Below, one piece after another: positions 6,330 to 20,765 of a stretch of DNA of 40,368 nt. How positions within the stretch are numbered: the stretch's first letter is position 1; each line of letters begins with the position of its first letter. The position numbers and the translations under genes are program-made. The notes under the pieces were generated by a model. That model worked only from the letters and a program-made list of their open reading frames with translations. It had not been told where the DNA came from and did no database searches. Location: NCBI GenBank assembly GCA_903876715.1, contig CAIRBF010000321.1, positions 1 through 40,368 of the forward strand. The letters run 5' to 3'. This stretch comes from an uncultured beta proteobacterium (GTDB taxonomy: Bacteria > Pseudomonadota > Gammaproteobacteria > Burkholderiales > Burkholderiaceae_C).

Positions 6330-6869
6330 CTAAGGTCCTGAAGGCCTGCGCCGCTCGACCAGCCCGCGCAGCGTGGCCTTCAAGGCCTCGGCCTGCTGCA
6401 GCCCGAAGGGCGCGAGCACGCGCGCCTCGTGCTCGCGTGCCAGCTCGATGAGCGCCGAGACCGTGCGCTGGCCATCGAGCGTGATGCACACACGCGTGAT
6501 GCGACGGTCGGCGGCATCGCCCCGCCGCTGAACCTGGGTGCGCGCCTCCAGGCGATCGAGCATGCGTGTCAAGGTCGGACCCTTGATCAAGGACACCTGG
6601 GCCAGACGGCCCGTGGTCAGCGTGTGGCCGCCCGAGAGCGTGGCGAGCACGCGCCACTCGGCCACCGACAGCCCATGGGCCCGCACGATGCGGTGAAACT
6701 CGCCCGAGATGAGTTCGCTGGCCTGCGCCAGCAGGGCAGGCAGGTAGGTGTCGACAAAGGGCCGTCCGCTGTAGGGCGGCTCCTGGCTGGCATCTGGCGC
6801 CGCTGCAGCGGCAGTCGGCGCCTCCGCCGCAACCGGGCCGCCCTGCGCCGCCGCCTGCACCTTCGACAT
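6330..6869 (-). CDS. MarR-family transcriptional regulator
   Basis: A 179-residue winged-helix regulator. After an Ala-rich N-terminal tail, the dimerisation helix (FVDTYLPALLAQASELI) leads into GLSVAEWRVLATLSGG. The recognition helix region is TTGRLAQVSLIKGPTLTRMLDRLE and the wing is RRGDAADRRITRVCIT, the MarR hallmark DxRxxxVxLT in slightly altered form. ATG 6869 is chosen; a longer frame would need a TTG at 6971. It lies at the 3' end of the catabolic block, 191 bp after the SDR gene. MarR regulators commonly repress aromatic-catabolism operons and release DNA on binding the substrate or a CoA ester; those in iad auxin loci sense auxin. A possible operator is noted at 18697-18714. Confidence 0.9.
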   Translation of the reverse strand: MSKVQAAAQGGPVAAEAPTAAAAAPDASQEPPYSGRPFVDTYLPALLAQASELISGEFHRIVRAHGLSVAEWRVLATLSGGHTLTTGRLAQVSLIKGPTLTRMLDRLEARTQVQRRGDAADRRITRVCITLDGQRTVSALIELAREHEARVLAPFGLQQAEALKATLRGLVERRRPSGP

Positions 6870-7060
6870 CACACGCGAATCGTCCACCACGGCTGGCCTC
6901 CGTGGCTGAGGGCTTTTCCGACATGCCCGAAGGGCGCATCGAGACGACCCATATTCAGGCGCGAACGGCAACCATGGCCCAGGCTGTGGCGAGGATACGC
7001 AACGGCGGGCCAGGGTGTCTTGGCGTGAACGGCGGGCATGGGAGAAGAACGCTCAACACC

Positions 7061-7831
7061 TCAGATGGTAAGCGTGCCCACGCTCGCGCCGCCACACACG
7101 TAGAGCACCTGGCCGGTGACGAAGCCCGCGCCGGGATCGACGAAGAAGTCCACGGCGCGCGCCACGTCCTCGGGCGTGCCCAGGCGCTGCACCGGGATGG
7201 CCGCAGCCAGGCGCTGCTCACGCTCGCTCTCGGCGGGCACGACGGCATGGAACATCTCGGTGCCGCGGATCGGGCCCGGTGCGACGACGTTGACGGTGAT
7301 GCCCTCGGCCGCCAGCTCCAGCGCCCAGGTCCGGCCCAACCCGATCATGCCGGCCTTGGTGGCGGCGTAGGCGCTGCGCGTGGCCAGGCCGAGTGCGCCG
7401 CGCGAAGAGATCAGCACGATGCGGCCGAACCCGCGCGCGCGCATGCCCGGGCGCACGGCCTGGGCGATGGCGATCGCGCTGCCCAGGTGCAGCTCGGTCA
7501 AGGCGTCCAAATCGTCCAACTGCACGTCGGCCAGCAGCGCTGGGCGGATCACGCCAGCGTTGTGGACGAAGGTACCGATGGTGTGCCGCTGCGCCAGCTC
7601 GGCGGCGACGGCCTGCGTGGCCGCGCGGTCGCCGAGGTCAACCTCGACGCTGATCAGGCGCGGGTGAGCGATGGGCGTGGGTCGCCGCGCCAGCGCCAGC
7701 ACCGTCAGGCCGCGCCCGAGCAGGTGCTCGCAGATCTTCAGCCCGATGCCGGTGCTGGTGCCGGTGACGAGCGCGCAAGCGTCGTCCGAAGAAGGAGCCA
7801 GATCACCCGCCGGGTGGGCAGAGAGGGTCAT
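7061..7831 (-). CDS. SDR family NAD(P)-dependent oxidoreductase
   Basis: A 256-residue classical short-chain dehydrogenase with intact machinery. It has the cofactor motif VTGTSTGIG, the structural HNAG, catalytic Ser in VLISSRGA, and Tyr/Lys in SAYAATKAG, followed by VNVVAPGPIRGTEM. It should reduce or oxidise a carbonyl/alcohol in the cytoplasm. It sits 89 bp downstream of the cyclase gene and before marR, so it is probably part of the catabolic operon. In an isatin-forming pathway it could interconvert dioxindole and isatin, or act on an upstream hydroxy intermediate; this is inference. It has all the catalytic residues that the SDR domain of the DUF35 fusion gene (8747-9997) has lost. Confidence 0.88.
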   Translation of the reverse strand: MTLSAHPAGDLAPSSDDACALVTGTSTGIGLKICEHLLGRGLTVLALARRPTPIAHPRLISVEVDLGDRAATQAVAAELAQRHTIGTFVHNAGVIRPALLADVQLDDLDALTELHLGSAIAIAQAVRPGMRARGFGRIVLISSRGALGLATRSAYAATKAGMIGLGRTWALELAAEGITVNVVAPGPIRGTEMFHAVVPAESEREQRLAAAIPVQRLGTPEDVARAVDFFVDPGAGFVTGQVLYVCGGASVGTLTI

Positions 7832-7920: not shown

Positions 7921-8742
7921 TCAGGCCCCCGGCACCAGCGCCAGCACGCGCAGCGGGCTGCCGCTGCCGTGCTCGATCTTCAGCGGCGGGCAGATCAGCA
8001 CGCTGCCCGTGGGTGGCAGCTGGTCCAGGTTGCACAGGCACTGCAGGCCGTAGCGCCCGGCCCCGTGCATGAAATAGTGGCACGGGTAGGGCGGGCGCAG
8101 GTGGTAGCCCTGGCCGGCATCGGTGCCGATGGCCTCGGAGCCGAAACCCAGCACGTCGCGCCGCTCGACCAGGAACTGCACCGCCTCGCTCGAAGGGCCG
8201 GGCGTATGCTGGCCGGTCTCGTCGAAGTTCTGGTAGGCCTCGGGGTCGCGGCGGCGGCTCCAGTCGGTGCGCATCAGCACCCAGGCGCCGGCCGGAATGC
8301 GGCCGTGCGCGCGCTCGAAGGCCTCGATGTCGGCCACCGTCAGCAGGTAGTCGGGGTCGGCCGCGGCCTGCTCGTGGCAGTCGATGACGCAGGCCGGCGC
8401 GACGAAGTGCTGCACCGGGATGGTGTCGACTGCGTTGTTCGGCAGGTGCCGGCCCGAGATCCAGTGGATCGGGGCGTCGAAGTGGGTGCCGGTGTGCTCG
8501 CCGCAGGAGAAGTTGTTCCAGTACCAGCCGGGGCCGCGCTCGTCGTAGCGCGAGACCTCCTCGATGCGGAAGGGCCAGCACTGGCCCATCTCGGGCGGCA
8601 GCGCGATCTGCGGGAACTCCGGGCTCAGCGTCTGCGTCAGGTCGACGACGCGGATGCTGCCACGGCCCAGCGCGCCCGCCAGGGCAGCCAGCAGTTGGGC
8701 CGGCGAGAGCTGCGGCGCTGTCGCGTATGCGGTGTCGGTCAT
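7921..8742 (-). CDS. Cyclase-family metal hydrolase (isatin hydrolase / kynurenine formamidase-like)
   Basis: A 273-residue PF04199 protein. The metal-binding signature HTGTHFDAPIHW (residues 83-94) is complete and preceded by GWYWNNFSCGE. Known members include kynurenine formamidase and the manganese enzyme isatin hydrolase, which opens the lactam of isatin to isatinate. It starts 4 bp after the stop of the DUF35-SDR gene, indicating tight co-expression. Between a CoA-ester-cleaving pair and an IorAB-type 2-oxo acid oxidoreductase, isatin hydrolysis is the best fit: isatinate is an aryl 2-oxo acid. Formamidase or another cyclic amide hydrolase remains possible, since no kynurenine-pathway gene (TDO, kynureninase) is nearby. 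Confidence 0.88.
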   Translation of the reverse strand: MTDTAYATAPQLSPAQLLAALAGALGRGSIRVVDLTQTLSPEFPQIALPPEMGQCWPFRIEEVSRYDERGPGWYWNNFSCGEHTGTHFDAPIHWISGRHLPNNAVDTIPVQHFVAPACVIDCHEQAAADPDYLLTVADIEAFERAHGRIPAGAWVLMRTDWSRRRDPEAYQNFDETGQHTPGPSSEAVQFLVERRDVLGFGSEAIGTDAGQGYHLRPPYPCHYFMHGAGRYGLQCLCNLDQLPPTGSVLICPPLKIEHGSGSPLRVLALVPGA

Positions 8743-8746
8743 GTCC

Positions 8747-9997
8747 TCACCCCCCTGCGGCGAGTTCGCGCTCGAGCACGCGCGGATCCTCGCGCCAGCG
8801 CTCCAGCCACTCCTGCGCCACGTCGCCCGGGTAGACGTCCTCGACCCCGTCCTTCAGCGCCTGCACCACGGCCCGGGCCAGCGTCTCGGGCGCCAGCTTC
8901 GGCGGCGGCAGGTTCTGGTTCCATTCATCGTCCACCGGCCCCGGGAAGACATTGACGACACGGATGCCGGCCGGGCGCATCTCGGCACGCAGGCACTGCG
9001 CCAGCGAGTGCGCGGCCGCCTTGCTGGCCGAGAAGGTGCCGTGCGGCGGGAAGTTCGCCAGCGCGTAGATCGACAGCAGGTTGACCCAGGCCGTGGCGTG
9101 CGTCGCGCCGTCGGACGAACGCCCCTTGAGCGCCGGGCCGAACTCCTGCGCCAGGCGCAGCAGGCCGAAGTAGTTGACGTCCATCTCGGCACGCGCGGCG
9201 TCGGTGCCGCGGCGTGCGCCGATGCCGTGCGCGCGGTGCACCTCGGCGTTGTTGACGACGATGTCGACCTTGCCGCCGATCTCGCCGGCCAGTTCCACCA
9301 CCGAGCGCCCGTCGGTCACGTCCAGCGGCACCAGCGTGACCTGCGGCAGCGCGCGAAGCGCGTCGAAACCGGGCAGCTTCTTCCAGGGCTCGGCGTGGCC
9401 GACCCAGACGATGTCGGCCCCGGCGGCGACGAAGGCGCGCACCAGGGCCTGCCCCAGCGGCGTCTTGCCGTCGCTCACCAGCACCTTGCGGAACTTCGGG
9501 TCGCTGCCCATCTCGCGCAGCATCTTGTCGTCGGCCATGTGCGGGGTCTCCGGGTCGGGAAGGGCGATGACGACGGCGCGGCCGGCGCGGTCGAGCCGCG
9601 CCGTCAGGCGCACCGCCTGGCCGGGTTCGTTGACGTCGCCATGCAGGTGAACGACGAGCGTCGGGCCGCTGTCCAGCCGCACCAGGCCCAGGCGCCAGGG
9701 CAGGCGCTCGCGGAAGAACAGGTCGTTGCTGTGGTGCAGTGTGGTCGCCGCCAGCAGCCGCCCGGCGCCGGACTGCACCCGCCAACGCAGACGCGCCGAG
9801 ACGCAGGCGTGGCAGGCCTCGCGCGGTGGGTACTGCACGGCGCCGCAGTCCTGGCACACCTGCAGTTCGAGCCGGCCCTCGGCCGCGGCGGCCGTCAGCC
9901 CCAGGGCGACGCGGCCGCGCGCCCACGGCGGCAGGTTCATCTGCGGCGTGCGCAGCACCGGGTTCTTGCGCGGCGGGCGCATCAGCGGCATCGTCAT
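8747..9997 (-). CDS. DUF35 OB-fold zinc-ribbon protein fused to a degenerate SDR domain
   Basis: A 416-residue two-module protein. Residues ~30-150 are a DUF35/ChsH2-type domain: a zinc ribbon with Cys48, 51, 62 and 65, then an OB fold (WRVQSGAGRLLAATTLHHS ... VVIALPDPE). Residues ~170-405 look like a short-chain dehydrogenase, but the TGxxxGxG motif reads SDGKTPLG and the catalytic Tyr of YxxxK is Phe322 (FSASK); Ser309 and Lys326 remain. Redox activity is therefore doubtful. The start codon overlaps the stop of the thiolase-like gene (ATGA), so the two are translationally coupled. DUF35 proteins pair with thiolase-fold partners, and in steroid degradation the Ltp2/ChsH2-DUF35 pair is a retro-aldolase. 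ATG 9997 is preferred; a second ATG lies 6 bp downstream. Confidence 0.88.
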   Translation of the reverse strand: MTMPLMRPPRKNPVLRTPQMNLPPWARGRVALGLTAAAAEGRLELQVCQDCGAVQYPPREACHACVSARLRWRVQSGAGRLLAATTLHHSNDLFFRERLPWRLGLVRLDSGPTLVVHLHGDVNEPGQAVRLTARLDRAGRAVVIALPDPETPHMADDKMLREMGSDPKFRKVLVSDGKTPLGQALVRAFVAAGADIVWVGHAEPWKKLPGFDALRALPQVTLVPLDVTDGRSVVELAGEIGGKVDIVVNNAEVHRAHGIGARRGTDAARAEMDVNYFGLLRLAQEFGPALKGRSSDGATHATAWVNLLSIYALANFPPHGTFSASKAAAHSLAQCLRAEMRPAGIRVVNVFPGPVDDEWNQNLPPPKLAPETLARAVVQALKDGVEDVYPGDVAQEWLERWREDPRVLERELAAGG

Positions 9998-11169
9998 GCG
10001 GGCGTCCCCAGGATCGCGGCGCCGGTGCACAGGCAGCGGTCGTAGGTGACCATGCCGTAGCCGCCGACCAGGCCCAGGCGCGCGCCCGCCACCTCGCGGC
10101 CCTTGGCCTGGCCGGTGAGCTGGCGCAGCGCCTCGTTGACGTTCATGAAGCCCCCTGCCGCCCCCGCCTGCCCCGACGACAGCTGCCCGCCCGAGGTGTT
10201 GAGTGGAAAGCTGCCGTCGTGCGTGAAGCGGTGTGCACGCACGAAGGCTGGGCCCTCGCCCAGCTCACAGAAGCCCAGGCCCTCGAGCTGCATCATCACG
10301 ATGACCGGGTAGTCGTCATAGGCCTGGACGAAGTCGATGTCGTCCGGCTGCGCGTCGGCCATGGCAAAGAGCTCAGGCAGGTCCACGCGCCAGCCGCCAC
10401 GCACCATCACCGGGTCGTCCTGGTAGGCGTTGTGGCGCTCGATCGTGCCCCGCACGGTGGCGTAGGCCAGGCCGAGGTCGCGCGCGCGCTCTTCGCTCAT
10501 CACGAGGAAGGCCTCGGCACCGGCGCAGGGCATCACGCAGTCGAACAGGTGGATGGGCTCGGCGATGGGGCGCGCAGCCAGGTACTCGTCCAGCGTCAGC
10601 GGCTTCCTGAAGAAGCGCGAACCGTAGGCGAGCGCGTTGGCGCGCTGGTCCACGCACAGGCGGCCGAAGTCCTCGCGCCGGGCGCCGCTGCGCGCCATGT
10701 AGTTCGCGGTGATGAAGGCGAACAGCGCGTTCGGTCCGCCCGAGCCGTAGGGGTAGGTCGCGTCGCGCGCGAACTGGCTGAACGAGCCCAGCATCAGGCG
10801 GAAGGAATCGACGTGGTTGGTGTCGGCCGCCACGCAGGCCACGACGCTGGCGTCCCCGGCCTGGACCGCGCGCGCGGCGCGGCGCAGCGCCATCACGCCG
10901 CTGGCGCCGCCGTTGGGCAGGTGGTCGAGCCAGCGCGGGCTCAGGCCCAGGTGCTGGGTCACGCCGACCGCGGTGTCGGGTCCGAGCGAGAAGCTGCTGA
11001 CCGTCAGGCCGTCGATGTCGTCCTTGCGCAGGCCGCTCGCGTCCAACAACGCACGCACCGCGCGGCCGAGGAACCAGTGTGCGCCGCGCGTCGAGTAACG
11101 CACGTAGGGCACAGTCACCGGCACGCAGACGGCGACCCCCTCGTAAGCGCGGCGGGCGCGGATGGCCAC
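9994..11169 (-). CDS. SCP2-thiolase-like protein lacking the nucleophilic Cys (putative retro-aldolase)
   Basis: A 391-residue thiolase-fold protein of the SCP2/lipid-transfer (Ltp) branch. Where true thiolases have the acyl-accepting Cys (CxSG), this one has NGGASG (residues 86-91), with Gly88 at the Cys position. The downstream loop has AYDDYP (Tyr284), LNTSGGQLSSGQAGAAGG (323-340) and a C-terminal GGYG. Ltp2-type aldolases have lost the same Cys and use tyrosines to cleave tertiary beta-hydroxyacyl-CoAs, with a DUF35 partner. The next gene supplies exactly such a partner through an ATGA overlap. It begins with GTG 4 bp after the CoA-ligase stop. The predicted role is carbon-carbon cleavage of a CoA ester releasing acetyl-CoA; a ketothiolase is unlikely without the Cys. 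Confidence 0.85.
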   Translation of the reverse strand: MAIRARRAYEGVAVCVPVTVPYVRYSTRGAHWFLGRAVRALLDASGLRKDDIDGLTVSSFSLGPDTAVGVTQHLGLSPRWLDHLPNGGASGVMALRRAARAVQAGDASVVACVAADTNHVDSFRLMLGSFSQFARDATYPYGSGGPNALFAFITANYMARSGARREDFGRLCVDQRANALAYGSRFFRKPLTLDEYLAARPIAEPIHLFDCVMPCAGAEAFLVMSEERARDLGLAYATVRGTIERHNAYQDDPVMVRGGWRVDLPELFAMADAQPDDIDFVQAYDDYPVIVMMQLEGLGFCELGEGPAFVRAHRFTHDGSFPLNTSGGQLSSGQAGAAGGFMNVNEALRQLTGQAKGREVAGARLGLVGGYGMVTYDRCLCTGAAILGTPA

Positions 11170-11173
11170 CGCC

Positions 11174-12853
11174 CTACCCCACCCGACGCTTCAGCGCGCG
11201 CGTGTCCACGCAGTGCGCCTGCCCGGGCAGGGCCTGCGCCAGGGCCTTCAACTCGCCACGCTGGATCTTCTGCGAGGCCGTCAGCGGCAGCGCGTCGACA
11301 AAGGCCACCCAGCCCGGGGCCTTGTAGTAGGCCAGGCGCTGCAGCGCGTGCTCCACCAGCGCCGCCGCCAGCGCCGCCCGTGCCGCGGCATCGGCACTTT
11401 CGTGCAGCACCACGCAGGCCAGCACCTCGTCGCCGCGCACGGCATCAGGCGTGGCTGCCACGGCGCAGGCCTTGACGGCCGGATGCTGGTTCAGCACGCC
11501 CTCGACCTCGACGGCCGAGATGTTCTCGCCGCTGCGACGGATCACGTTCTTGCGGCGGTCGATGAAGTGCAATTGGCCGTCGGTGTCGCGGCTGACGATG
11601 TCGCCGGTGTGGAACCAGCCGCCGGCCCAGGCCTCGGCCGTCGCCTCGGGGTCCTTGAGGTAGCCGGCAAAGAAACCGTCGCGCGGATCCGGCCCGGCAT
11701 GGCGCACCCACAACTCACCGGGCTCGCCGCGGGCCGGGTCGCTGCCGTCGTCGGCCACCAGCCGGACCTCGACGTCCGCGCCCTCGCGGCCGAAGCAGTT
11801 CGTGCCGACCTGGCGCGGCTCGCGGTTGGCCATGACGACCGCGCCGGCGCCGGTCTCTGTCATGGCCCAGGCCTCGAGCAGCGGGAAGCCGAAGCGTGCT
11901 TCGAACGGTGCGTGCAACGCACGCTCCACCCCGGCGCCGAAGCCGAAACGCACCGCGTGCGCGCAGTCGTCGTCGCGCGGCGGCGCCTTCATCAACATGG
12001 CCGGCATGACGCCCAGGTAGTGAACGACGCTGGCGCCGCAGGCGCGCACGCTGTCCCACCAGGTGCCCGGGTGGAAGCGGTCGAGCAGGATCAGGCAGCC
12101 ACCGGTGAGCACCATCGCCATCACCGAGTAGGCCTTCGCGTTCATATGGACCAGCGGCAGGGGCGTCAGCATCCGCTCCTGTCCCAGCCGCAGCGCCGCC
12201 ATGCCGCCGACGCCGGCATACCAGGCGCCGGAATGCAGGTAGTAGCGGTTGGTCAGCACGCAGCCCTTGGGCCGGCCCGTCGTGCCACTGGTGTAGAGCA
12301 GGCCGCACTCCGTATGCAGGCCGGACTCGGCATCCGCGTGCGGCGGCGGCAGCACCGTCGGCGGCGGGGCATCGGTGTAGGTCATCAGCGCCAGCGGGCG
12401 GCCGGCGGCACGGGCCGCGGCAGCGAGGTCGGCATGGCGGCGCGGCAGTGCCACGGCGAGCACGATCTCCGAGTGCCCGACCAGGTACTCGAGTTCGGCC
12501 GAGCGCAGATCGGCATTGATCGGCACGACGGAGACGCCCAGCGCGTTCAGCGCAAACCAGTGCAGCAGGAAGGCGGGCCGGTTCTCCAGCAGCAGGCCGA
12601 CACGGTGGCCAGCCCCGTAGCCGGCGCCGGCGTAGGCCGCCCGCAGCGACTGCACGCGCGCCAGCGCCTGCGCGTAGCTGAGCTCGCCGGCTTCGATGCC
12701 GTAGACGGCGGCGGTCTCGGGCAGCACCTGGACGAAAGGCCGGTCGCCCCAGCGCGCGGCCGCGGCCGCGAAGGCGGTAGCGACGGTGGGCTGGGCTGCG
12801 GGCTCGAGACCGGCGGCGGTAGAGCCAGGAAACGGATGTGAAGAAGCGCTCAT
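11174..12853 (-). CDS. ATP-dependent acyl/aryl-CoA ligase (CaiC-like)
   Basis: A 559-residue ANL-superfamily ligase. The P-loop is TSGTTGRPKG (188-197), the A5 motif EAWAMTETG, the A7 motif GWFHTGDIVSRDTDGQ and the A8 hinge RRKNVIRRSGENIS; the C-terminal lysine sits in TASQKIQRGEL. The layout resembles crotonobetaine/carnitine-CoA ligases and plant-compound CoA ligases. It starts 15 bp after the dioxygenase beta subunit stop and ends 4 bp before the thiolase-like gene, so it belongs to the operon. It should make the CoA ester that the thiolase-like/DUF35 pair cleaves. In an auxin pathway the substrate would be dioxindole-3-acetate; this is inference. No strong ribosome binding site is seen, so translation may be coupled to the upstream gene. 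Confidence 0.9.
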   Translation of the reverse strand: MSASSHPFPGSTAAGLEPAAQPTVATAFAAAAARWGDRPFVQVLPETAAVYGIEAGELSYAQALARVQSLRAAYAGAGYGAGHRVGLLLENRPAFLLHWFALNALGVSVVPINADLRSAELEYLVGHSEIVLAVALPRRHADLAAAARAAGRPLALMTYTDAPPPTVLPPPHADAESGLHTECGLLYTSGTTGRPKGCVLTNRYYLHSGAWYAGVGGMAALRLGQERMLTPLPLVHMNAKAYSVMAMVLTGGCLILLDRFHPGTWWDSVRACGASVVHYLGVMPAMLMKAPPRDDDCAHAVRFGFGAGVERALHAPFEARFGFPLLEAWAMTETGAGAVVMANREPRQVGTNCFGREGADVEVRLVADDGSDPARGEPGELWVRHAGPDPRDGFFAGYLKDPEATAEAWAGGWFHTGDIVSRDTDGQLHFIDRRKNVIRRSGENISAVEVEGVLNQHPAVKACAVAATPDAVRGDEVLACVVLHESADAAARAALAAALVEHALQRLAYYKAPGWVAFVDALPLTASQKIQRGELKALAQALPGQAHCVDTRALKRRVG

Positions 12854-12868: not shown

Positions 12869-13357
12869 CTACATGAAGAGTTGCATGTTGCCGAAGGTGG
12901 CATCGCAGTTGACCAGGTCCACGCGCTTGAGCCGGATGCGCAGCCCCGCCGGCGTGGCCACCAGGGTGTGCGTGGCCCAGCCGGCATACAGCTGCTGCTC
13001 GTCACGCCGGGTCTCGACATAGTGGAAGGCGCAGCGCGTCAAATAGACCCCCGCCGCCTCGTCGCGCGACTCCACCGTCGGCGCCTGCAGCAGGTGGTGA
13101 CAGCGGCTGGCAGGCTGCTGCGAATAGGTGCGCGCGCCGCGCAGCCGCTCCACCCGCACCTGCAGCAGCAACTTGTCCTCGTGCATCAGCGAGGCGTGGA
13201 GCCGCGCGTCGGTCTGGCCCGGGGCGAGCGGCATCCAGTAGACGCCGTCCTCGGCGAACAGCGCCAACCAGTCCTCGAAACGCAGTTCGTCGAGCAGGCG
13301 GGCCTCGGCGTAGACGAAGTCGGTCAGTTCGCGGTCGGTGGGAAGGGGGGTGCTCAC
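12869..13357 (-). CDS. Aromatic-ring-hydroxylating dioxygenase, beta subunit
   Basis: A 162-residue small subunit of a Rieske non-haem iron oxygenase. It has the cone-fold pattern: ELTDFVYAEARLLDELRFEDWLALFAEDGVYWMPL, then a central ARTYSQQPASRCHHLL segment and a C-terminal IRLKRVDLVNCDATFGNM. These subunits hold the alpha3beta3 hexamer together. An ATG at 13411 is in frame but lacks a ribosome binding site. The GTG at 13357 has GGAGG at 13366-13370, 8 nt upstream, and gives the usual subunit length, so it is chosen. It lies 61 bp after the alpha subunit stop. In iad clusters this corresponds to the small subunit of the indole-acetate dioxygenase. Confidence 0.88.
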   Translation of the reverse strand: MSTPLPTDRELTDFVYAEARLLDELRFEDWLALFAEDGVYWMPLAPGQTDARLHASLMHEDKLLLQVRVERLRGARTYSQQPASRCHHLLQAPTVESRDEAAGVYLTRCAFHYVETRRDEQQLYAGWATHTLVATPAGLRIRLKRVDLVNCDATFGNMQLFM

Positions 13358-13418
13358 GGCAGGGGCCTCCGCAGGTCCGGGCGATGCGATCGTGGGGCGA
13401 ACCAGGGGCATGGCAAGT

Positions 13419-14792
13419 TCATGCCACGGCCCCGGCCGGCGGCGCCGGTGCCGTTTCAGACGAGCCTGCGTCCATGGAGGCCGTCATGTAGCGCACCCAG
13501 GCGCGCATCTGGTTGCGCATCTGCCATTCGTTCGTGCCGTTGGTTACGGCCGTGGCCTGTCCGCGCTCGGCCGGGTCGTACAACCGGCCGAGGTTGACCC
13601 AGTCGGCGCCGCGGCTGCGCAGGCCTTCCTGGGAGCGCTCGTAGACCTCCAGGTCGTCGTGACCGACGACCGAGGTCGGCGCGTTGATCAGGCGGTTGTA
13701 CATCAGCGTGCGCTCGAACAGCAGGTCGGGCGCGCCCACGGGACGGAAGGTCCAGGACTCCACGAGCGTGCGGTCGGCCGCCAGCGGCTTGAACAGGCGC
13801 AGCGTCTGGATCGGCCCCTTGACCATGATGTTCGGGAAGTAGATGGTGTTGTGGCGCACCTCGCCGAGGATGCGGCCCGCGCGCTCCTCGCCGTAGGCCG
13901 CGACCATGGCCTCCCAGTAGCCGGGGATGGGCGAGTAGCCGGCGTGCAGCGAGTCGGCCACGCCGGTGTGGCCGTGGCCGTTGTCCCAGACGCGGATACC
14001 CATCTTCTCGAAGAAATCGTAGGGGTTGACGAAGGGCGCGAACAGTTCCACCGCCATCGGCTTGGGCGTGCCGGGCGGCGCCGCCTGCCACACCCGCACT
14101 GCCGTGCCGGCCGAGGACTGGTGCGCCACCATCGGGTGGCAGGTGTCGGTCTGGTTGTCGACCAGCATCTTCCAGTTGCAGCGGTGCAGGTAGCGGAAGA
14201 CGCCGCCGGCCACCTCCAGCCGCCCCTCGGGCGAGCGGTCGACCATGTTGTCCAGGGTACTCAGCGAGTCGCCGAAGAAGTCCTCGAAGCTCACGCCCTC
14301 GGGGTTCAGGCGGCAGAAGACGAAGTCGCGGTAGACGCGCAGGGCACCCACCGGGGCGAGCCCGCGCTTCGCCTCGGACTGCTGGAAGGCCGGGTTGGCA
14401 TAGCCCTCGCGCAGCGGCGTCGCCAGCAGCGAGCCGTCGGTGCGGTAGGTCCAGGCGTGGTATGGGCAGCGGAAGATATTGCCCACGTGCGCTGGCCCGT
14501 CGGGCACGAGCTGCACGCCCTTGTGGGCGCAGCGGTTGTGCAGCACGCGCAGGCTGGCGTCGGCCTGGCGCACCATCACCACCGGCTGGTCGCCCACCGT
14601 GGTGGCATAGGCGTCGCCGGGCTGCGGCGCCTGGCTCGCGTGACCCACGTAGACCCAGGTGTTGGCGAACAGGTGCTCCATCTCGAGCGCGAAGATCTCG
14701 GGGTCGGTGTAGCAGTCGCGGTGGACCTCGGTCTCGCGCACCAGTGCAGCGATGGCTTCAGGATGGTCGCGGTAGCGGGAGGTTCGGGGCAT
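13419..14792 (-). CDS. Rieske aromatic-ring-hydroxylating dioxygenase, alpha subunit
   Basis: A 457-residue catalytic subunit. The Rieske [2Fe-2S] centre is bound by Cys88/His90 (RCAHKG) and Cys109/His112 (CPYHAW). The mononuclear iron site follows the D/EN..D..H....H pattern in DNQTDTCHPMVAH, with Asp216, His219 and His224. The length and the beta subunit downstream mark a two-subunit oxygenase. It inserts O2 into an aromatic or heteroaromatic ring using electrons from a reductase, but no reductase or ferredoxin is encoded next to it, so electrons must come from elsewhere. ATG 14792 has TGGAG upstream. In the proposed pathway it would oxidise the indole ring of indole-3-acetate; benzoate- or anthranilate-type substrates cannot be excluded. 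Confidence 0.92.
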   Translation of the reverse strand: MPRTSRYRDHPEAIAALVRETEVHRDCYTDPEIFALEMEHLFANTWVYVGHASQAPQPGDAYATTVGDQPVVMVRQADASLRVLHNRCAHKGVQLVPDGPAHVGNIFRCPYHAWTYRTDGSLLATPLREGYANPAFQQSEAKRGLAPVGALRVYRDFVFCRLNPEGVSFEDFFGDSLSTLDNMVDRSPEGRLEVAGGVFRYLHRCNWKMLVDNQTDTCHPMVAHQSSAGTAVRVWQAAPPGTPKPMAVELFAPFVNPYDFFEKMGIRVWDNGHGHTGVADSLHAGYSPIPGYWEAMVAAYGEERAGRILGEVRHNTIYFPNIMVKGPIQTLRLFKPLAADRTLVESWTFRPVGAPDLLFERTLMYNRLINAPTSVVGHDDLEVYERSQEGLRSRGADWVNLGRLYDPAERGQATAVTNGTNEWQMRNQMRAWVRYMTASMDAGSSETAPAPPAGAVA

Positions 14793-14834: not shown

Positions 14835-16451
14835 TCAGGCGGCCAGACCGTGGCGGCGCAGTGCGGCCTGCAGCGCCCGCCCGTGCTCGTCGGCCAGCGC
14901 CGCCTCGCGCAATTCAGCCAGCAGCGCCGGGGCGGTACGTGAAGAGCCGCACCAGGTGGCGCGAAGCGTCTCGAAGTTGCGCCAGCCGCGCGCGTGCGTG
15001 TCGCCATAGCCCTTGACCAGGCGCTGGCAGCGCGCGATCTCGACCGCGAGCGCGGCGTCGGCCGGAGCGACAGCGCGCAGGTCGGCCAGCCAGGCCTCGA
15101 TGCGCGCGTTCTCCAAGGAGTAGCGCAGGGTCGAGCGGCGCCAGCGCCGCAGCGAGGCCACGGCGGCGAGCATCAGGTAGCCGCGCAGCGAGCTCGTCTC
15201 GACGACGCGCCCGCGCGCGGCCAGGCGCTCGACCCAGCGCCGCGGCGTGCCCGAGGCCAGCAGCCAGCGCCCGAGCGGCGCGGGCATCGTCTCGGCGATC
15301 TCCTGCAGGCGCGGGTGCAGGTACTCCTGGATCGCGAGCACCTGGTCGGCGCCGGCGCGGACCTCGCCGCGCACGCGGGCGAAGCGCGAGTCGCGCGTCT
15401 TCAGGTCGGCCACGCGGATGGTGTCCTCCCAGCTCATCCACAACGCCAGGTGGCGCGCCACCTCGCCCAGCAGCACCGTCGTCGCCACCTGCGACGCCGC
15501 ACCGCGCGCCGCGGCCCGCACGGTGTCGAGGCGATCGAGGTAAAGGCCGGCGTAGGCCAGGTCCTGGTAGTCGATGCTGCGTCGCAGTCCCTCGAGCACC
15601 AGCTCCAGGGTTTGCGCGTCGTCGGCATGGGCTCGCGCGGCGCGGTCGATCAGCGCCTGCACCGCCGGCTCGGTCGCCCTCGGCAGCGGGGCCGGCACGG
15701 CGGCAGGGACCTGCGGTGGCGTGGCCGATGCGTGGGCGCCCAAGACCGCCGACGCAGCCTCGGGGCCGCCCACAGACCCGGCCCGGTCGAACGCCGCAGC
15801 AAAGGCCCGCAGGCTGGCCGCCACGCCCACCCCGCCTTGCTCGATCGTCGCTTCGAACTGCGCGCGCGTGAAGGGCAACTCGCCGGTGGCGGCCAGGGCG
15901 CCGAACAGCACCGCGCTGATCACGCTGCCCGATGCCTCGGCCGCCTGCGCCATGTCGAAGCCGACGAAGCGCCGGGCCGCGCCGCGTGCCAGGTCCAGCA
16001 GCGCGGCGCTGTCGGCGCGCCCGTCACCCATGGCCGTCTTCTCGGCAATGGCGTAGACGCGGTGCGTCGAGGTGACCAGCGTCGTGCGCTGCGGCGTCAC
16101 CAGTCCGCGCTGCACCGCGCGCCCGGCTTCCATCAGCTCGGAGGCCAGCACCACGTCGACATCGCCCGGCATCGGCATCAGCGCCATCACCGGCGCCTGA
16201 CCGGCCTGCTGCGCCGCAACGGCCGGGAACATCTCGACGTAATAGATCGTCGCGCCCGTGCGCTGCGCGACGCCCGGCACCGAGGTCGTCTGCGCCAGGT
16301 GGCCATGCTGCTCGGCCAGGCTGACGAGCCAGTCGGCCAGCACGCCGCCGCCCTCCCCGCCCATGGCCAGGATGGCAATCTTGATCAGGCGCGGCCCGGC
16401 GTTGTCGGGCCCGGCCTGCGTCGCGGGCGCGGCCTGGGACTCAGAACGCAT
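14835..16451 (-). CDS. Indolepyruvate oxidoreductase beta-like subunit (IorB-like) with C-terminal extension
   Basis: A 538-residue protein. Residues ~20-230 are the gamma/beta domain of 2-oxo acid:ferredoxin oxidoreductases, opening with IKIAILAMGGEGGGVLADWL and including VPGVAQRTGATIYYVEMFP. After an Ala/Pro linker, residues ~250-538 form a helical domain of the kind (DUF6537-like) found at the end of proteobacterial indolepyruvate ferredoxin oxidoreductases. The chosen start (ATG 16451) overlaps the end of the iorA-like gene by 11 bp; an ATG at 16475 is possible. Together the two subunits oxidatively decarboxylate an aryl 2-oxo acid. Placement with a Rieske oxygenase and cyclase hydrolase suggests an arylglyoxylate such as isatinate rather than indolepyruvate. 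Confidence 0.87.
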   Translation of the reverse strand: MRSESQAAPATQAGPDNAGPRLIKIAILAMGGEGGGVLADWLVSLAEQHGHLAQTTSVPGVAQRTGATIYYVEMFPAVAAQQAGQAPVMALMPMPGDVDVVLASELMEAGRAVQRGLVTPQRTTLVTSTHRVYAIAEKTAMGDGRADSAALLDLARGAARRFVGFDMAQAAEASGSVISAVLFGALAATGELPFTRAQFEATIEQGGVGVAASLRAFAAAFDRAGSVGGPEAASAVLGAHASATPPQVPAAVPAPLPRATEPAVQALIDRAARAHADDAQTLELVLEGLRRSIDYQDLAYAGLYLDRLDTVRAAARGAASQVATTVLLGEVARHLALWMSWEDTIRVADLKTRDSRFARVRGEVRAGADQVLAIQEYLHPRLQEIAETMPAPLGRWLLASGTPRRWVERLAARGRVVETSSLRGYLMLAAVASLRRWRRSTLRYSLENARIEAWLADLRAVAPADAALAVEIARCQRLVKGYGDTHARGWRNFETLRATWCGSSRTAPALLAELREAALADEHGRALQAALRRHGLAA

Positions 16452-18585
16452 ACCGAGCCCGTCGCGCCGCCGCACGACGCTGCAGCCAGCCGATCACGCG
16501 CCCGCGCAGGGCCTCGCGCCAGCGGTCGCCCCGCGTGGGGTTGCTGACGATGCGCGCCTTGTAGAACGAGGGGCAGAGCACCGCCGCGTGCGAGACCTCG
16601 CCACACAGCCCGCAGCCGACGCAGGAGTCGACCACCGCGGCCACCGGGTCGGTGCGCAGCGGGTCGGGATTGGGCTTGACCGTCAGCGAGGGGCAGCCCG
16701 AAAGCCGGATGCAGGAATGGTCGCCGGTGCAGGTGTCGGGGTCGACGCCGAAACGCTCGCGCACGACGCGCTCACCGGCGGCCGCACGCTGGCGCTGCAG
16801 CGGCTTCTCACGCCGCTGGCGGTTGAGCATGCATTCGCTCTGGGCGACGATGACCTTGGGGCCGCGCTCGCGCGTGGTCAGCGCCTCTTTCAAGGCTGCC
16901 TTCATCTGCGCCAGATCGTAGGTGTGGGTGACGGTGCGCACCCACTGCACCCCCACGCCGCGCACTGCGGACTCGATCGCGTGGCCGGTGCTGCGCGTCG
17001 GGTTGACGGCCTTGGACGACAAGATGTCCTGTCCGCCGGTGGCCGAGGTGTAGCTGTTGTCGACGACAACCGTCAGGTTGTCCGAGCGATTGAACACCGC
17101 ATTGGCGATGCCGCTCGTCAGGCCGTTGTGCCAGAAGCCGCCGTCGCCCATGACGCTGATGGCGCGCTTGGAGGCGGGCACGTTCAGCGCCGCGGCGCCG
17201 GCCGTGCCCAGGCCGTAACCCATCGTCGTGTTGCCCAGGTTGAACGGCGGCAGGATGGAGAACAGGTGGCAGCCGATGTCGGCCGAGACATGGTGCTCGC
17301 CGAGCTCGCGCTCGACCAGCTTCATCGCGGTGAAGATGGGCCGCTCGGGGCAGCCGGTGCAGAAGCCTGGCGGACGCGCATGCACCGTCGCCCCCGCGGG
17401 CAGCTCGATCGGGCCGGAGTGCGGCGCTGCCAAGGCCTGGGGCGGCAGGCGGCCATGGCGTTCGAGGAAGGCGCGTACGCCGCCCAGCACCTCGGCGGCC
17501 GTGTACTCGCCCGCCACCGGCAGCACGTCCTTGCCGTGCAGCACCGCATCGCAACCCCCGGCGCGCAGGATCGCCGCCACGTTCTGCTCGAGGTAGTTGG
17601 GCTGGCCCTCCTCCACCATCAGCACCGCGCGCTTGCCGCGGCAGAAGCGCAGCACCTCGTCGTCCACCAGCGGGTAGGTGACGTTCATCACGTACAGCGG
17701 CACGCGGCTGCGGCCGAAGACATCGGCCAGCCCTACGCGCTCGAGCACACGCAGCAGCGTGTTGTAGTGCCCGCCCTGCACGACGATACCCACGTCGTCG
17801 AAGCCGCCGGGCGCGGCGTCGAAGAACTCGTTGAGACCACGCTCCTGGATGAAGCGCACCGCGGCGGGCCAGCGCTGCTGGATCTTCTCCTTTTCATGCA
17901 GGAAGCTCGCCGGCGGCAGCACGATGCGGCTGGTGTCGCGGCGGGGCTGCTCCATGGCCTCGCGCAGCGTGAAGGCCGGACGCTGGTTGGCGCTGGTGAC
18001 GAACTGACCGTGCACGTGGCAAGCGCGGATGCGCAGCTGCAGCATCACCGGCGTGTGGCTGGCCTCGCTGAGTTCGAAACCGTCCTTGACCGCCTTGACG
18101 ATGGAGGGCAGGTTGGGCCGCGGGTCGAGCAGCCAGATCTGCGACTTCATCGCGAAGGCGTGGCTGCGCTCCTGCATGATCGAGGAGCCCTCGCCGTAGT
18201 CCTCGCCGACGATGATCAGGGCGCCGCCCGTGACGCCGCCTGATGCCAGGTTGGCCAGCGCGTCGCTCGCGACGTTCGTGCCCACCGTGCTCTTGAAAGT
18301 GCAGGCGCCGCGCAGCGGGTAGTTCACGCTGGCGGCCAGCGTGGCCGCGGCCGTCGCCTCGCTCGCGCTGTGCTCGAAGTGGATGCCGTGCTCGGCCAGG
18401 ATGTCCTGGGCGTCGGCCAGCACGTCCATCAGGTGCGAGATCGGCGCGCCCTGGTAGCCCGAGACATAGGCCACGCCCGACTCGAGCAGGGCCTTCGTGA
18501 CGGCCAGGATGCCCTCGCCGTGGAACACCTCGCCCTCACCCAGGCGCAGCTTGCGGACTTCTTCGACGAAGGATCTTTCGGCCAT
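16441..18585 (-). CDS. Indolepyruvate ferredoxin oxidoreductase alpha-like subunit (IorA-like)
   Basis: A 714-residue thiamine-diphosphate, iron-sulfur enzyme. The N-terminal pyrimidine-binding domain (GEGILAVTKALLESGVAYVSGYQGAP, EHSASEATAAATLAASVN) is followed by a transferase-C-like segment. The TPP-binding domain carries VMGDGGFWHNGLTSG and VVVDNSYTSATGGQD. The C-terminus has a cysteine-rich ferredoxin region (CTGDHSCIRLSGCPS, then CVGCGLCGEVSHAAVLCPS). The reaction is aryl 2-oxo acid + CoA to aryl-acyl-CoA + CO2 with ferredoxin as acceptor. It is the first gene of the catabolic transcript: a good promoter lies ~100 bp upstream, and GGGAGC precedes ATG 18585. The likely in-pathway substrate is isatinate, giving anthraniloyl-CoA or anthranilate; this is inference. 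Confidence 0.92.
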   Translation of the reverse strand: MAERSFVEEVRKLRLGEGEVFHGEGILAVTKALLESGVAYVSGYQGAPISHLMDVLADAQDILAEHGIHFEHSASEATAAATLAASVNYPLRGACTFKSTVGTNVASDALANLASGGVTGGALIIVGEDYGEGSSIMQERSHAFAMKSQIWLLDPRPNLPSIVKAVKDGFELSEASHTPVMLQLRIRACHVHGQFVTSANQRPAFTLREAMEQPRRDTSRIVLPPASFLHEKEKIQQRWPAAVRFIQERGLNEFFDAAPGGFDDVGIVVQGGHYNTLLRVLERVGLADVFGRSRVPLYVMNVTYPLVDDEVLRFCRGKRAVLMVEEGQPNYLEQNVAAILRAGGCDAVLHGKDVLPVAGEYTAAEVLGGVRAFLERHGRLPPQALAAPHSGPIELPAGATVHARPPGFCTGCPERPIFTAMKLVERELGEHHVSADIGCHLFSILPPFNLGNTTMGYGLGTAGAAALNVPASKRAISVMGDGGFWHNGLTSGIANAVFNRSDNLTVVVDNSYTSATGGQDILSSKAVNPTRSTGHAIESAVRGVGVQWVRTVTHTYDLAQMKAALKEALTTRERGPKVIVAQSECMLNRQRREKPLQRQRAAAGERVVRERFGVDPDTCTGDHSCIRLSGCPSLTVKPNPDPLRTDPVAAVVDSCVGCGLCGEVSHAAVLCPSFYKARIVSNPTRGDRWREALRGRVIGWLQRRAAARRARYAF

Positions 18586-18748: not shown

Positions 18749-19888
18749 TCAACTCGACAGCGGAACCGTCCAAGCGTCGTAGCCGTAGACCCAGTCGGCG
18801 TTGCCCGGCCCTTTCATCCACTCGTTGCCGCGTGAGGCGATCTGGATGCGCGCGGTGCGCTCCCGACGCGCCGCCTCGTAGGCTTGGAGTGCCGGCCCGA
18901 TGCGCCCGCGGTCACGCACACCGGCCAGCGTCCGACCGAGCACGACGGCGTCCTCGATCGCCATGCCGGCGCCCTGGGCCATGAAAGGCAGCATGGGGTG
19001 GCAGGCGTCGCCGAGCAGCGTGACCGTGCCCACGGTCCAGGACGGCAGCGGCTCGCGCTCGTACAGGGCGCTCTTGAGCACGCGGTCGCAGGCGTCGAGC
19101 AGGCGCCGGGCGTCGGGGTGGAAGTCGCGGTAGACCTCGCGCAGCTCGTCCACGCTGCCCTCCGTCGTCCACGACTCCTCGGTCCAGCGCTCCTGGCCGG
19201 TGGTGGCGAAGACAAAGGTCTCGCGCCCCTGGTTGAGCGGGAAGGTGACGATCTGCGTCTGCGGGTTCGGGCCCCACCACTTGGTGAAGGCGTCGATCTC
19301 GGGCACGTCGCGCACACGCTCGGTGGGCACCACGGCGCGGAAGGAGACCACGCCGGTGAAACGCGGACTCTCGGGCCCGAACAGTGCAGCGCGCACACGT
19401 GAGTGGATGCCGTCCGCACCGATGACAGCGTCGTGCCGGCCCTGCCTGCCGTCCTCGAAGGAGAGCATCACGCCGGCTTCGTCCTGCGCCAGGGTGGCCA
19501 CGCGGCGGCCGAGGTGCACGTCGGCCGCGGGCACCTCGGTGGCGAGTGCCGCCAAAAGGTCGGCGCGGTGGATCGTCACCTGCGGCGCGCCGTAGCGCTG
19601 CTCAGCCTGCCCGCCCATGCCCAGGCGGGAGGTCTCGGCGCCGCTCAGGCCATCGCGACTGATGCGGAAGGTCGGCTGCGCGCCGTCGCGCCGGATGGCT
19701 GCGCCGACCTGGCCACCCAGCCCGTCCAGGGCCTTGACGACATTGGGGGTCAGGTTCACGTCGGCGCCCACGCGCGTCCACTGCGATGCCTGCTCGTGGA
19801 CCGAGACGCGATGCCCGGCCCGGCGCAACGCGATCGCGGCCGTCAAGCCGCCAATGCCGCCGCCGACGATACCAATGTCCATTTTCAT
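18749..19888 (-). CDS. FAD-dependent aromatic monooxygenase (salicylate / 3-hydroxybenzoate hydroxylase-like)
   Basis: A 379-residue class A flavoprotein hydroxylase. It has the FAD motif IGIVGGGIGGLTAAIALRRAG at the N-terminus, the DG motif AVIGADGIHSRVRAALFG, and the GD motif LLGDACHPMLPFMAQGAGMAIEDA. These place it with salicylate 1-hydroxylase and 3-hydroxybenzoate 6-hydroxylase, which hydroxylate phenolic or anthranilic acids using NAD(P)H. ATG 19888 has GGGAG upstream. It is 163 bp before iorA and separated from it by the operon promoter, so it forms a unit with the upstream SDR. It may feed the same pathway, for example at an indolic acid or at anthranilate, but the substrate is not resolvable. 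Confidence 0.87.
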   Translation of the reverse strand: MKMDIGIVGGGIGGLTAAIALRRAGHRVSVHEQASQWTRVGADVNLTPNVVKALDGLGGQVGAAIRRDGAQPTFRISRDGLSGAETSRLGMGGQAEQRYGAPQVTIHRADLLAALATEVPAADVHLGRRVATLAQDEAGVMLSFEDGRQGRHDAVIGADGIHSRVRAALFGPESPRFTGVVSFRAVVPTERVRDVPEIDAFTKWWGPNPQTQIVTFPLNQGRETFVFATTGQERWTEESWTTEGSVDELREVYRDFHPDARRLLDACDRVLKSALYEREPLPSWTVGTVTLLGDACHPMLPFMAQGAGMAIEDAVVLGRTLAGVRDRGRIGPALQAYEAARRERTARIQIASRGNEWMKGPGNADWVYGYDAWTVPLSS

Positions 19889-19958
19889 CGCGTGCTGCTC
19901 CCGTCCCGACCTGAAGGCGGCGTGCCCGATTCGACCGCAAGCGGCTCGAACGTGGACT

Positions 19959-20765
19959 TCAATGCTCGGCAGTTCCCCCCAGCCCGCCCCGCCGCAGCGT
20001 CGGCAGCCCCACGCCGCTCGCGTCGAAGCCGCCATCCACGGCCAGCGTCTGGCCATTGATGTAGCTCGCCTGCGGGCTGCACAGGAAGCCCACACCCTGG
20101 GCGATCTCCTCGGGCGTGCCGTAGCGGTTCAGCGGGATCGTGTCGTGGTAGTCGCTGCGGATCGCCACCGTGTGCACGAGCTTGGCCATCTCGGTGTCCA
20201 CCGGCCCGGGGGCGATGCAGTTCGCGCGGATGCCGGCGTTGCCCAGCTCGATGGCCTGCTGCTTGGTCAGGTGGATGATCGCGCCCTTGCTCGTGCCGTA
20301 GGCCACACGCATGGTGCTGGCACGCAGGCCGGAGATCGACGCGATGTTCACGACCGCACCGCCGCCGCCGCGCTTCATCACCGGCGCGCAGGCCTGGGTG
20401 CACAGGAAGGCCCCGTCGAGGTTGGTGCCCATCACGTGGCGCCAGTCGGCCCAGGTGGTCTCCTCGATGCGCTTGAACACCGCCACGCCAGCATTGTTGA
20501 CGAGTGCGTCGATGCGGCCGAAGCGCGCGTCGACGGCCGCCACAGCCGCCTCGACCTGGTCTGGCTGGGAGACGTCGGCATGGACGGTGAAGACGCGCTG
20601 CGCTTCAGCCAGCGAGGCCTCGGTCGCGGCCAGGGTCACGGCATCGACATCGAGCAACGCCACGCGGTAGCCGTGCGCGAGGAACCAGCGCCCGCAGGCC
20701 AGACCGATCCCGCGCGCACCGCCGGTGACGAGGGCGACAGGGGAAGGAGCGTTCGAAGGGTTCAT
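19959..20765 (-). CDS. SDR family oxidoreductase
   Basis: A 268-residue classical SDR with VTGGARGIGLA, NNAG, catalytic Ser in NIASISG, Tyr/Lys in VAYGTSKGA, and the C-terminal INGQTLAVDGGF. All catalytic residues are present. ATG 20765 (MNPSNAP) is preferred over an in-frame ATG at 20810, because it sits just before the nucleotide fold. It lies 70 bp upstream of the FAD hydroxylase on the same strand, probably in one transcript. It is likely a dehydrogenase for a hydroxylated intermediate, with unknown substrate. Confidence 0.87.
   Translation of the reverse strand: MNPSNAPSPVALVTGGARGIGLACGRWFLAHGYRVALLDVDAVTLAATEASLAEAQRVFTVHADVSQPDQVEAAVAAVDARFGRIDALVNNAGVAVFKRIEETTWADWRHVMGTNLDGAFLCTQACAPVMKRGGGGAVVNIASISGLRASTMRVAYGTSKGAIIHLTKQQAIELGNAGIRANCIAPGPVDTEMAKLVHTVAIRSDYHDTIPLNRYGTPEEIAQGVGFLCSPQASYINGQTLAVDGGFDASGVGLPTLRRGGLGGTAEH

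Follow-up and report, generated by a model that had tools for sequence, protein, structure and literature searches.

A thiolase-fold protein and its DUF35 partner as the probable retro-aldolase of bacterial auxin degradation

Introduction

Bacteria carrying iad genes protect plant roots from excess auxin, and the step of this degradation at issue here is the removal of the acetyl side chain. The question of how this step proceeds is raised by two adjacent genes on the minus strand of a 40,368-nucleotide stretch of DNA from an uncultured beta proteobacterium (referred to as the window): iadG (9994 to 11169), encoding a thiolase-fold protein of 391 amino acids, and iadH (8747 to 9997), encoding a protein of 416 amino acids in which Pfam detects a DUF35 part fused to a short-chain dehydrogenase/reductase (SDR) part. 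The proposed substrate, dioxindole-3-acetyl-CoA, has its hydroxyl group on the quaternary carbon C3, beta to the thioester, and so belongs to the tertiary alcohols and not to the beta-ketoacyl-CoAs. The compound is unfit for a thiolase without rearrangement but fit for retro-aldol cleavage. The only published assignment found for the two proteins, made from annotation in a 2025 preprint (PMC12633357; this and the other papers are cited from parts of their texts), is ketothiolase (EC 2.3.1.16) for IadG and alcohol dehydrogenase for IadH. An earlier note on this DNA suggested a retro-aldolase of the type formed by Ltp2 and ChsH2(DUF35). The sequence comparisons described here indicate that IadG and the DUF35 domain of IadH very probably make up a thiolase-fold retro-aldolase that would convert dioxindole-3-acetyl-CoA to isatin and acetyl-CoA.

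Results

The motif NGGASG (residues 86 to 91) of IadG places Gly88 (codon at 10906 to 10908, minus strand) at the position of the thiolase nucleophile, and the motif AYDDYP (residues 283 to 288) contains Tyr284. Both residues had been singled out in the earlier note, and the coordinates, strand and motifs hold. In an alignment with thiolase 7yvy, Gly88 was paired with the nucleophilic Cys, Tyr284 with the His of HDAF and Gln334 with the His of GHP. The features marking a thiolase (EC 2.3.1.9 or EC 2.3.1.16) were missing, there being no nucleophilic Cys in a CxS/G setting and YDDY and GQA being present in place of HDxF and GHP. Judged by its active site, IadG is not a thiolase.

Genome searches at E 1e-60 gave homologues in 6 of the 369 genomes covered in the class and in 23 of the 299 in the family, the window's own genome counted. 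A profile at the same threshold gave them in 19 of 398 genomes of the phylum, and a search at E 1e-100 in 11 of 199 genomes of another order of the phylum. Others came from a scan of named genomes in which the best 80 of 587 relatives were taken as loci, and from plasmids (44 records, five taken). A first count of 117 IadG and 115 IadH rows was restricted to uncut genes with at least 58% identity, two duplicates having been removed; a second count of 127 and 123 rows added ten IadG rows, one of them at 52%, and eight IadH rows, again without two duplicates and without two cut iadH genes. As some genomes were present in two sources, distinct sequences were also counted (115 IadG and 110 IadH). 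Gly88 was found in all 114 distinct IadG homologues having this position, none of which has a Cys there (the 115th is cut by its contig). Tyr284, Asp286, Tyr287, Gln329 and Gln334 were present in 115 of 115. This invariance among distinct homologues indicates that the Gly88 and Tyr284 features are not due to chance.

The closest solved structure by sequence was 9myr (E 3.4e-48), followed by 4u4e and 6ok1; the PDB titles identify 9myr as the Sal-Shy(DUF35) aldolase and 6ok1 as the Ltp2-ChsH2(DUF35) aldolase. In Sal, a Gly likewise replaces the thiolase Cys, and mutation has shown Tyr302 and Cys304 to be essential; the catalytic residues of Ltp2 are Tyr294, within YDHF, and Tyr344 (PMC12329534). 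The active-site residues of Sal and IadG aligned one to one: Gly89 with Gly88, Tyr302 with Tyr284, Cys304 with Asp286, Gln347 with Gln329 and Gln352 with Gln334. The catalytic motif agrees with those of the known aldolases in Tyr284 and Gly88 but not in the second catalytic residue: Cys304 of Sal and Tyr344 of Ltp2 are absent, with Asp286 and Gln334 found instead, and the stretch Tyr284-Asp285-Asp286-Tyr287 (codons at 10309 to 10320, minus strand) matches neither the YDHF of Ltp2 nor the YDCY of Sal (Tyr302-Asp-Cys304-Tyr305).

An AlphaFold model of IadG built from 43 sequences (mean pLDDT, 85.2; pTM, 0.89) gave a similar ranking, with Sal first (Z 47.4, rmsd 2.9, 374 residues aligned) and Ltp2 second (Z 45.0, rmsd 2.8, 366 residues aligned). 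The relationship to Ltp2 was supported, but Sal was nearest by both sequence and fold, with Ltp2 ranking second in the fold list and third among the sequence matches. A low-confidence stretch of the model (residues 124 to 144) falls in the region of a loop described as partly disordered in Sal, which is suggestive only.

In a tree of 46 proteins, the IadG proteins formed one clade (support 100/99). Their sisters were two YDDY proteins encoded outside iad loci and linked to CoA-transferase genes, and then three YDDF proteins; these groups and the main Sal group made up one branch (97/94) apart from the Cys-containing thiolases, with Ltp2 and a YD[AS]F group lying outside it. By sequence, IadG is a separate YDD[Y/F] branch with Asp in place of the Cys of Sal or the His of Ltp2. 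These comparisons support the view that IadG works like Sal and Ltp2, as a branch of its own with its own second catalytic residue. The genome of the window also encodes two more thiolase-fold proteins without the nucleophilic Cys (L002, 1435 to 2592, and L003, 466 to 1683), having the motifs YDHF (Ltp2-like) and YDSF, respectively.

The gene context of the sister groups was examined. In four of four YDDF loci (aldolase genes at 1486 to 2652 of L134, 9672 to 10838 of L147, 9560 to 10729 of L148 and from 1501 of L150), the aldolase gene comes after a gene for an enoyl-CoA hydratase and before one for a DUF35 protein. These assignments were made by Pfam for L134, L147 and L148 (the zinc-ribbon match being below the cut-off in the latter two) and by similarity for L150; L134 and L148 come from one genome. 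As a hydratase makes the beta-hydroxyacyl-CoA needed by a retro-aldolase, this arrangement favors aldolase chemistry for a motif that contains Asp. Both YDDY genes outside iad loci (L009, 714 to 1874; L033, 1492 to 2655) have a class III CoA-transferase gene before and a DUF35 gene after them, as detected by Pfam. Genes for a TauD-type dioxygenase and an IclR regulator lie near the YDDY gene of L033 and occupy the same place in L146.

The stop codon of iadG and the start codon of iadH share the four bases ATGA (9994 to 9997, minus strand), as the earlier note had stated. That note had also assigned a DUF35 zinc ribbon and OB fold to the next gene product. This was confirmed for the part encoded at 9518 to 9997 (minus strand), whose matches to Pfam zf-ChsH2 and to OB_ChsH2_C exceed the gathering score; the note had overlooked the SDR fusion and, in IadG, the departure of Asp286, the third residue of YDDY, from both known aldolases. 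Among solved chains, the DUF35 part was closest to ChsH2(DUF35) of 6ok1 (E 1.5e-5). The four zinc Cys (Cys48, Cys51, Cys62 and Cys65) are spaced C-x2-C-x10-C-x2-C as in ChsH2, unlike the C3H1 finger of Shy, and all four are present in 110 of 110 distinct IadH homologues. No DUF35 chain was found among the best 50 fold matches of IadH; these cover the SDR half and have no bearing against the DUF35 part.

A DUF35 gene follows iadG within less than 200 bases in all 115 loci with a continuing contig (same-genome copies included), 73 of which show the 4-base overlap; three further loci, in which the contig ends first, were left out. Ten other loci (L152 to L163 less two duplicates) had the DUF35 gene placed alike in eight cases, and in L152 and L153 it lies on the same strand after iadG, with gaps of about 440 and 1,190 bases. 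The SDR domain is missing from 4 of 110 distinct IadH homologues (L008, L143, L161 and L163). One of these is the DUF35-only partner of an IadG homologue on a Novosphingobium plasmid (L143, 10161 to 10490), in which iadI, iadD and iadE were not detected within 9 kb of the iadG homologue; an iadI homologue (61%) is located elsewhere on the plasmid.

The gene after iadH, iadI (7921 to 8742, minus strand), encodes a member of the cyclase family matching solved isatin hydrolases at E 1e-110. Isatin hydrolases are recognized by GLQC or GLAS, a metal site HxxxHxD and WxW or FxW, and kynurenine formamidases by a glutamate motif instead of GLQC (PMC6117287). IadI has GLQC, HTGTHFD and WYW, the pattern of an isatin hydrolase; a kynurenine formamidase was rejected on the same grounds. 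The pattern was present in 79 of 79 complete IadI homologues, 77 with GLQC and 2 with GLAS (same-genome copies included). Among the 80 loci with at least 3 kb beyond iadG, 77 have iadI downstream, and in the other three (L070, L087 and L143) it is found elsewhere in the genome or plasmid record (85, 84 and 61% identity). In L144, a longer form of L007, the iadI copy lies on the same contig at a distance of 13 kb. Since the next gene carries the isatin-hydrolase signature, isatin is the expected product of IadG, in line with the earlier proposal that isatin feeds the cyclase encoded next. On a Shinella plasmid (L141, 7361 to 12205), an F-G-H-I module lies beside genes for a LysR regulator, a tyramine-oxidase subunit and an FAD-oxidoreductase, with no Rieske genes within 19 kb; this module is perhaps supplied by another source of oxindoles.

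An iad-type auxin-degradation locus occupies the minus strand here, with the order D-E-F-G-H-I-J, a MarR-family regulator gene (6330 to 6971) and the markers iadA and iadB. In Variovorax paradoxus CL14 the order is C-D-E-F-G-H-I-J, as taken from its gene numbers (PMC10374108), and it is this match that identifies 9994 to 11169 as iadG and 8747 to 9997 as iadH. The locus encodes the Rieske oxygenase large and small subunits IadD (13419 to 14792) and IadE (12869 to 13411), the AMP-forming acyl-CoA ligase IadF (11174 to 12853), proposed to activate dioxindole-3-acetate, and IadJ (7061 to 7831), an SDR dehydrogenase with intact motifs (TGTSTGIG and YAATK). Between iadB and iadD, iadC is missing, and a reductase gene of the iadC type was not seen next to iadD in the window, to which the search for an electron donor of IadDE was confined. 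A PF01494 flavin monooxygenase gene (18749 to 20095) was observed beside iadA. The iadB and iadA genes (14835 to 16475 and 16441 to 18585; together 14835 to 18585, minus strand) encode beta and alpha subunits like those of indolepyruvate oxidoreductase (IorA/IorB), and the pair might turn isatinate, a 2-oxo acid, into anthraniloyl-CoA. Bearing on this role, iadC-K2 is reported to be sufficient for anthranilate (PMC12633357).

Discussion

The following reaction is proposed. IadF would convert dioxindole-3-acetate to its CoA thioester; Tyr284 of IadG would take the proton of the tertiary C3 hydroxyl group; the bond between C3 and CH2 would break, releasing isatin; and the acetyl-CoA enolate would be protonated, probably by Asp286, at the place of Cys304 of Sal and the His of Ltp2. 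No acyl-enzyme would form, as Gly88 occupies the place of the nucleophile, and the reaction would be redox neutral. IadI would then hydrolyze isatin to isatinate, and IadH would serve as an obligate DUF35 subunit rather than as an alcohol dehydrogenase. We infer the bond that is cleaved, the base and proton-donor roles of Tyr284 and Asp286 (from position only) and the complex of IadG with DUF35.

Published data agree with this proposal in several respects. Formation of dioxindole-3-acetate is ascribed to IadJ, and deletion of iadF, iadG, iadH or iadI reduced anthranilate and led to accumulation of C10H9NO4 (PMC12633357). The iadG and iadH deletions both stall at this compound, as expected of two subunits, although the iadI deletion raises it too. 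Later intermediates retain only four ring deuteriums (PMC12633357), as if the CH2 leaves as acetyl-CoA. As projected intermediates went undetected, the removal of the side chain was assigned from annotation (PMC12633357). In another organism, Pseudomonas sp. LY1, compounds formed from indole-3-acetic acid were identified as isatin (C8H5NO2) and isatinate (PMC8383072), and dioxindole, isatin and isatinic acid are reported in Variovorax (PMC9613470). A description of IadG as an aldolase was not found in the open-access literature searched; no word beginning with 'aldol' occurs in the main text of PMC12633357, PMC10374108 or PMC9613470.

Several observations weigh against a retro-aldolase. The preprint calls the side-chain removal reductive, with C8H7NO2 as its product, and this compound, which has the formula of dioxindole (isatin plus 2H), accumulates in the iadI deletion and in an iadCDEFGH-J-K2 strain (PMC12633357). 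The direct retro-aldol product, isatin, is C8H5NO2. The assumption that C8H7NO2 is isatin reduced afterwards in the cell is the weakest link of the proposal. Furthermore, C10H9NO4 also rises in the iadI deletion (PMC12633357), so that this readout does not single out IadG and IadH. An isatin hydrolase gene is absent from the surroundings of L145, a longer form of L008, whose genome has only a 39% relative. Within IadG, Cys112, Cys211, Cys215 and Cys301 show little or no variation; none aligns with a catalytic position. Sal and Ltp2 also have Cys112 and Cys301, and Cys215 is paired with a Cys of 7yvy other than the nucleophile. In the fold list, TbSLP, 4u4e and archaeal thiolases are within about 1 Z of Ltp2, and other thiolase-fold chains score only about 1 to 3 Z lower than Sal and Ltp2. 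As thiolases score so close to Ltp2, fold alone cannot tell an aldolase from a thiolase, but the residues do. In the tree, a single clade of all YDC and YDD rows was rejected by the AU test (p 0.016), and two YDCF rows fell with Ltp2.

The alternative that fares best, though unlikely, is a retro-aldol step followed by a true reduction, with the SDR half of IadH either acting as an isatin reductase that gives dioxindole or transferring hydride in a reductive side-chain removal. It would account for the C8H7NO2 accumulating in the preprint strains (PMC12633357) and for the dioxindole detected in Variovorax (PMC9613470). The SDR part comprises the C-terminal 250 residues of IadH (8750 to 9502, minus strand; Pfam adh_short, residues 172 to 363). 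Its degenerate glycine motif, SDGKTPLG (residues 175 to 182; 9452 to 9475), aligned with TGASSGFG of SDR 3m1a, and Phe322 (9032 to 9034) is at the place of the catalytic Tyr, giving FSASK for YxxxK. Among 106 distinct SDR domains, the first Gly of TGxxxGxG was lost in all, the second in 102 and YxxxK in 96 (kept in 0/119, 5/119 and 11/119 raw rows, respectively); in L007, both motifs are gone. The 4 domains with the second Gly and the 10 with Tyr and Lys intact count against an inactive SDR half, as does 5u4s, the nearest solved SDR, which binds NADP despite an aligned Leu at the place of the catalytic Tyr. The SDR branch of 5u4s may hold more non-classical members. Against a reduction stand these losses, the 4 of 110 homologues lacking the domain altogether and the isatin hydrolase gene that comes next, whose family uses isatin. 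A working alcohol dehydrogenase was rejected as the main role of IadH on account of the lost cofactor and catalytic motifs, and the degenerate SDR half is probably an inactive appendage.

A second alternative, that IadG is a ketothiolase, is very improbable. The substrate would be dioxindole-3-acetyl-CoA or the ring-opened 2-formamidobenzoylacetyl-CoA, the free acid of which is also C10H9NO4. In addition to the EC number of the preprint, this alternative draws on the Pfam match to the thiolase C-terminal domain, on the annotation of a plasmid homologue as a thiolase family protein and on an older Bradyrhizobium route proposed via 2-formaminobenzoylacetate (cited in PMC8383072). However, the nucleophilic Cys and the His residues of HDxF and GHP are all replaced in IadG, the replacements are invariant, and the first of these substrates is no beta-ketoacyl-CoA. 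The next gene product has GLQC in place of the glutamate motif of kynurenine formamidases.

Other CoA chemistry has next to no probability: PhlC and TbSLP do share the fold and appear in the fold list of IadG (with a C88S variant of CsATase, related to PhlC, by its PDB title), and PhlB is a DUF35 partner, but PhlC-type acyl transfer uses a nucleophilic Cys, which IadG lacks, and no pathway step needs decarboxylation of an acetyl thioester as reported for TbSLP.

With moderate confidence, the retro-aldolase proposal can be widened to a third catalytic class of thiolase-fold aldolases (Tyr-Asp, YDD[Y/F]) outside steroid metabolism. Members would act on dioxindole-3-acetyl-CoA in auxin degraders and on other beta-hydroxyacyl-CoAs, made by a hydratase or activated by a CoA-transferase, in the sister groups. 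The iad DUF35 protein would have captured an SDR domain that then decayed to a non-enzymatic appendage, perhaps a scaffold passing isatin to IadI.

A redox-neutral retro-aldol step would explain why each of IadF, IadG and IadH is needed and would yield isatin for a known isatin hydrolase. This reading would correct two annotations used in pathway engineering and, if true, would add to the Sal and Ltp2 aldolases a member that acts outside steroid chemistry and has a new catalytic residue.

Among known systems, the bile-acid aldolase CtSal-CtShy(DUF35) of Comamonas testosteroni (9myr) resembles IadG in its thiolase fold, Gly for Cys, Tyr base, two Gln after GGQ, DUF35 partner and acetyl-CoA product (proposed for IadG). 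The two differ in Asp286 for Cys304, share about 30% identity, and act on a C22-hydroxy steroid (Sal) and, as proposed, an indolic tertiary alcohol (IadG). The DUF35 of IadH is fused to a degenerate SDR and has a C4 zinc ribbon, whereas that of Shy is found with a MaoC hydratase and has a C3H1 finger. The cholesterol side-chain aldolase TcLtp2-ChsH2(DUF35) (6ok1) shares with IadG and IadH the fold, Tyr base, Gly and a C4 zinc-ribbon DUF35, and its substrate is a tertiary (C17) alcohol, like that proposed for IadG; IadG has Asp for His in YDxx and Gln334 at the place of Tyr344, the second catalytic Tyr of Ltp2, and belongs to a separate branch of the tree. TbSLP, the SCP2-thiolase-like protein of Trypanosoma brucei (5ab4 to 5ab7), has the same fold, a YDCF motif and a loss of the thiolase Cys residues (PMC12329534), but, unlike IadG, it has no DUF35 partner; it was outside the tree of 46. 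SCP2-type and other thiolases (7yvy and 6hsj) share the fold and CoA-thioester chemistry, whereas their Cys and His residues are lacking in IadG, as compared with 7yvy. For the step after IadG, IadI is a signature member of the isatin hydrolases known from Labrenzia and Ralstonia (5nna, 5nmp and 4j0n).

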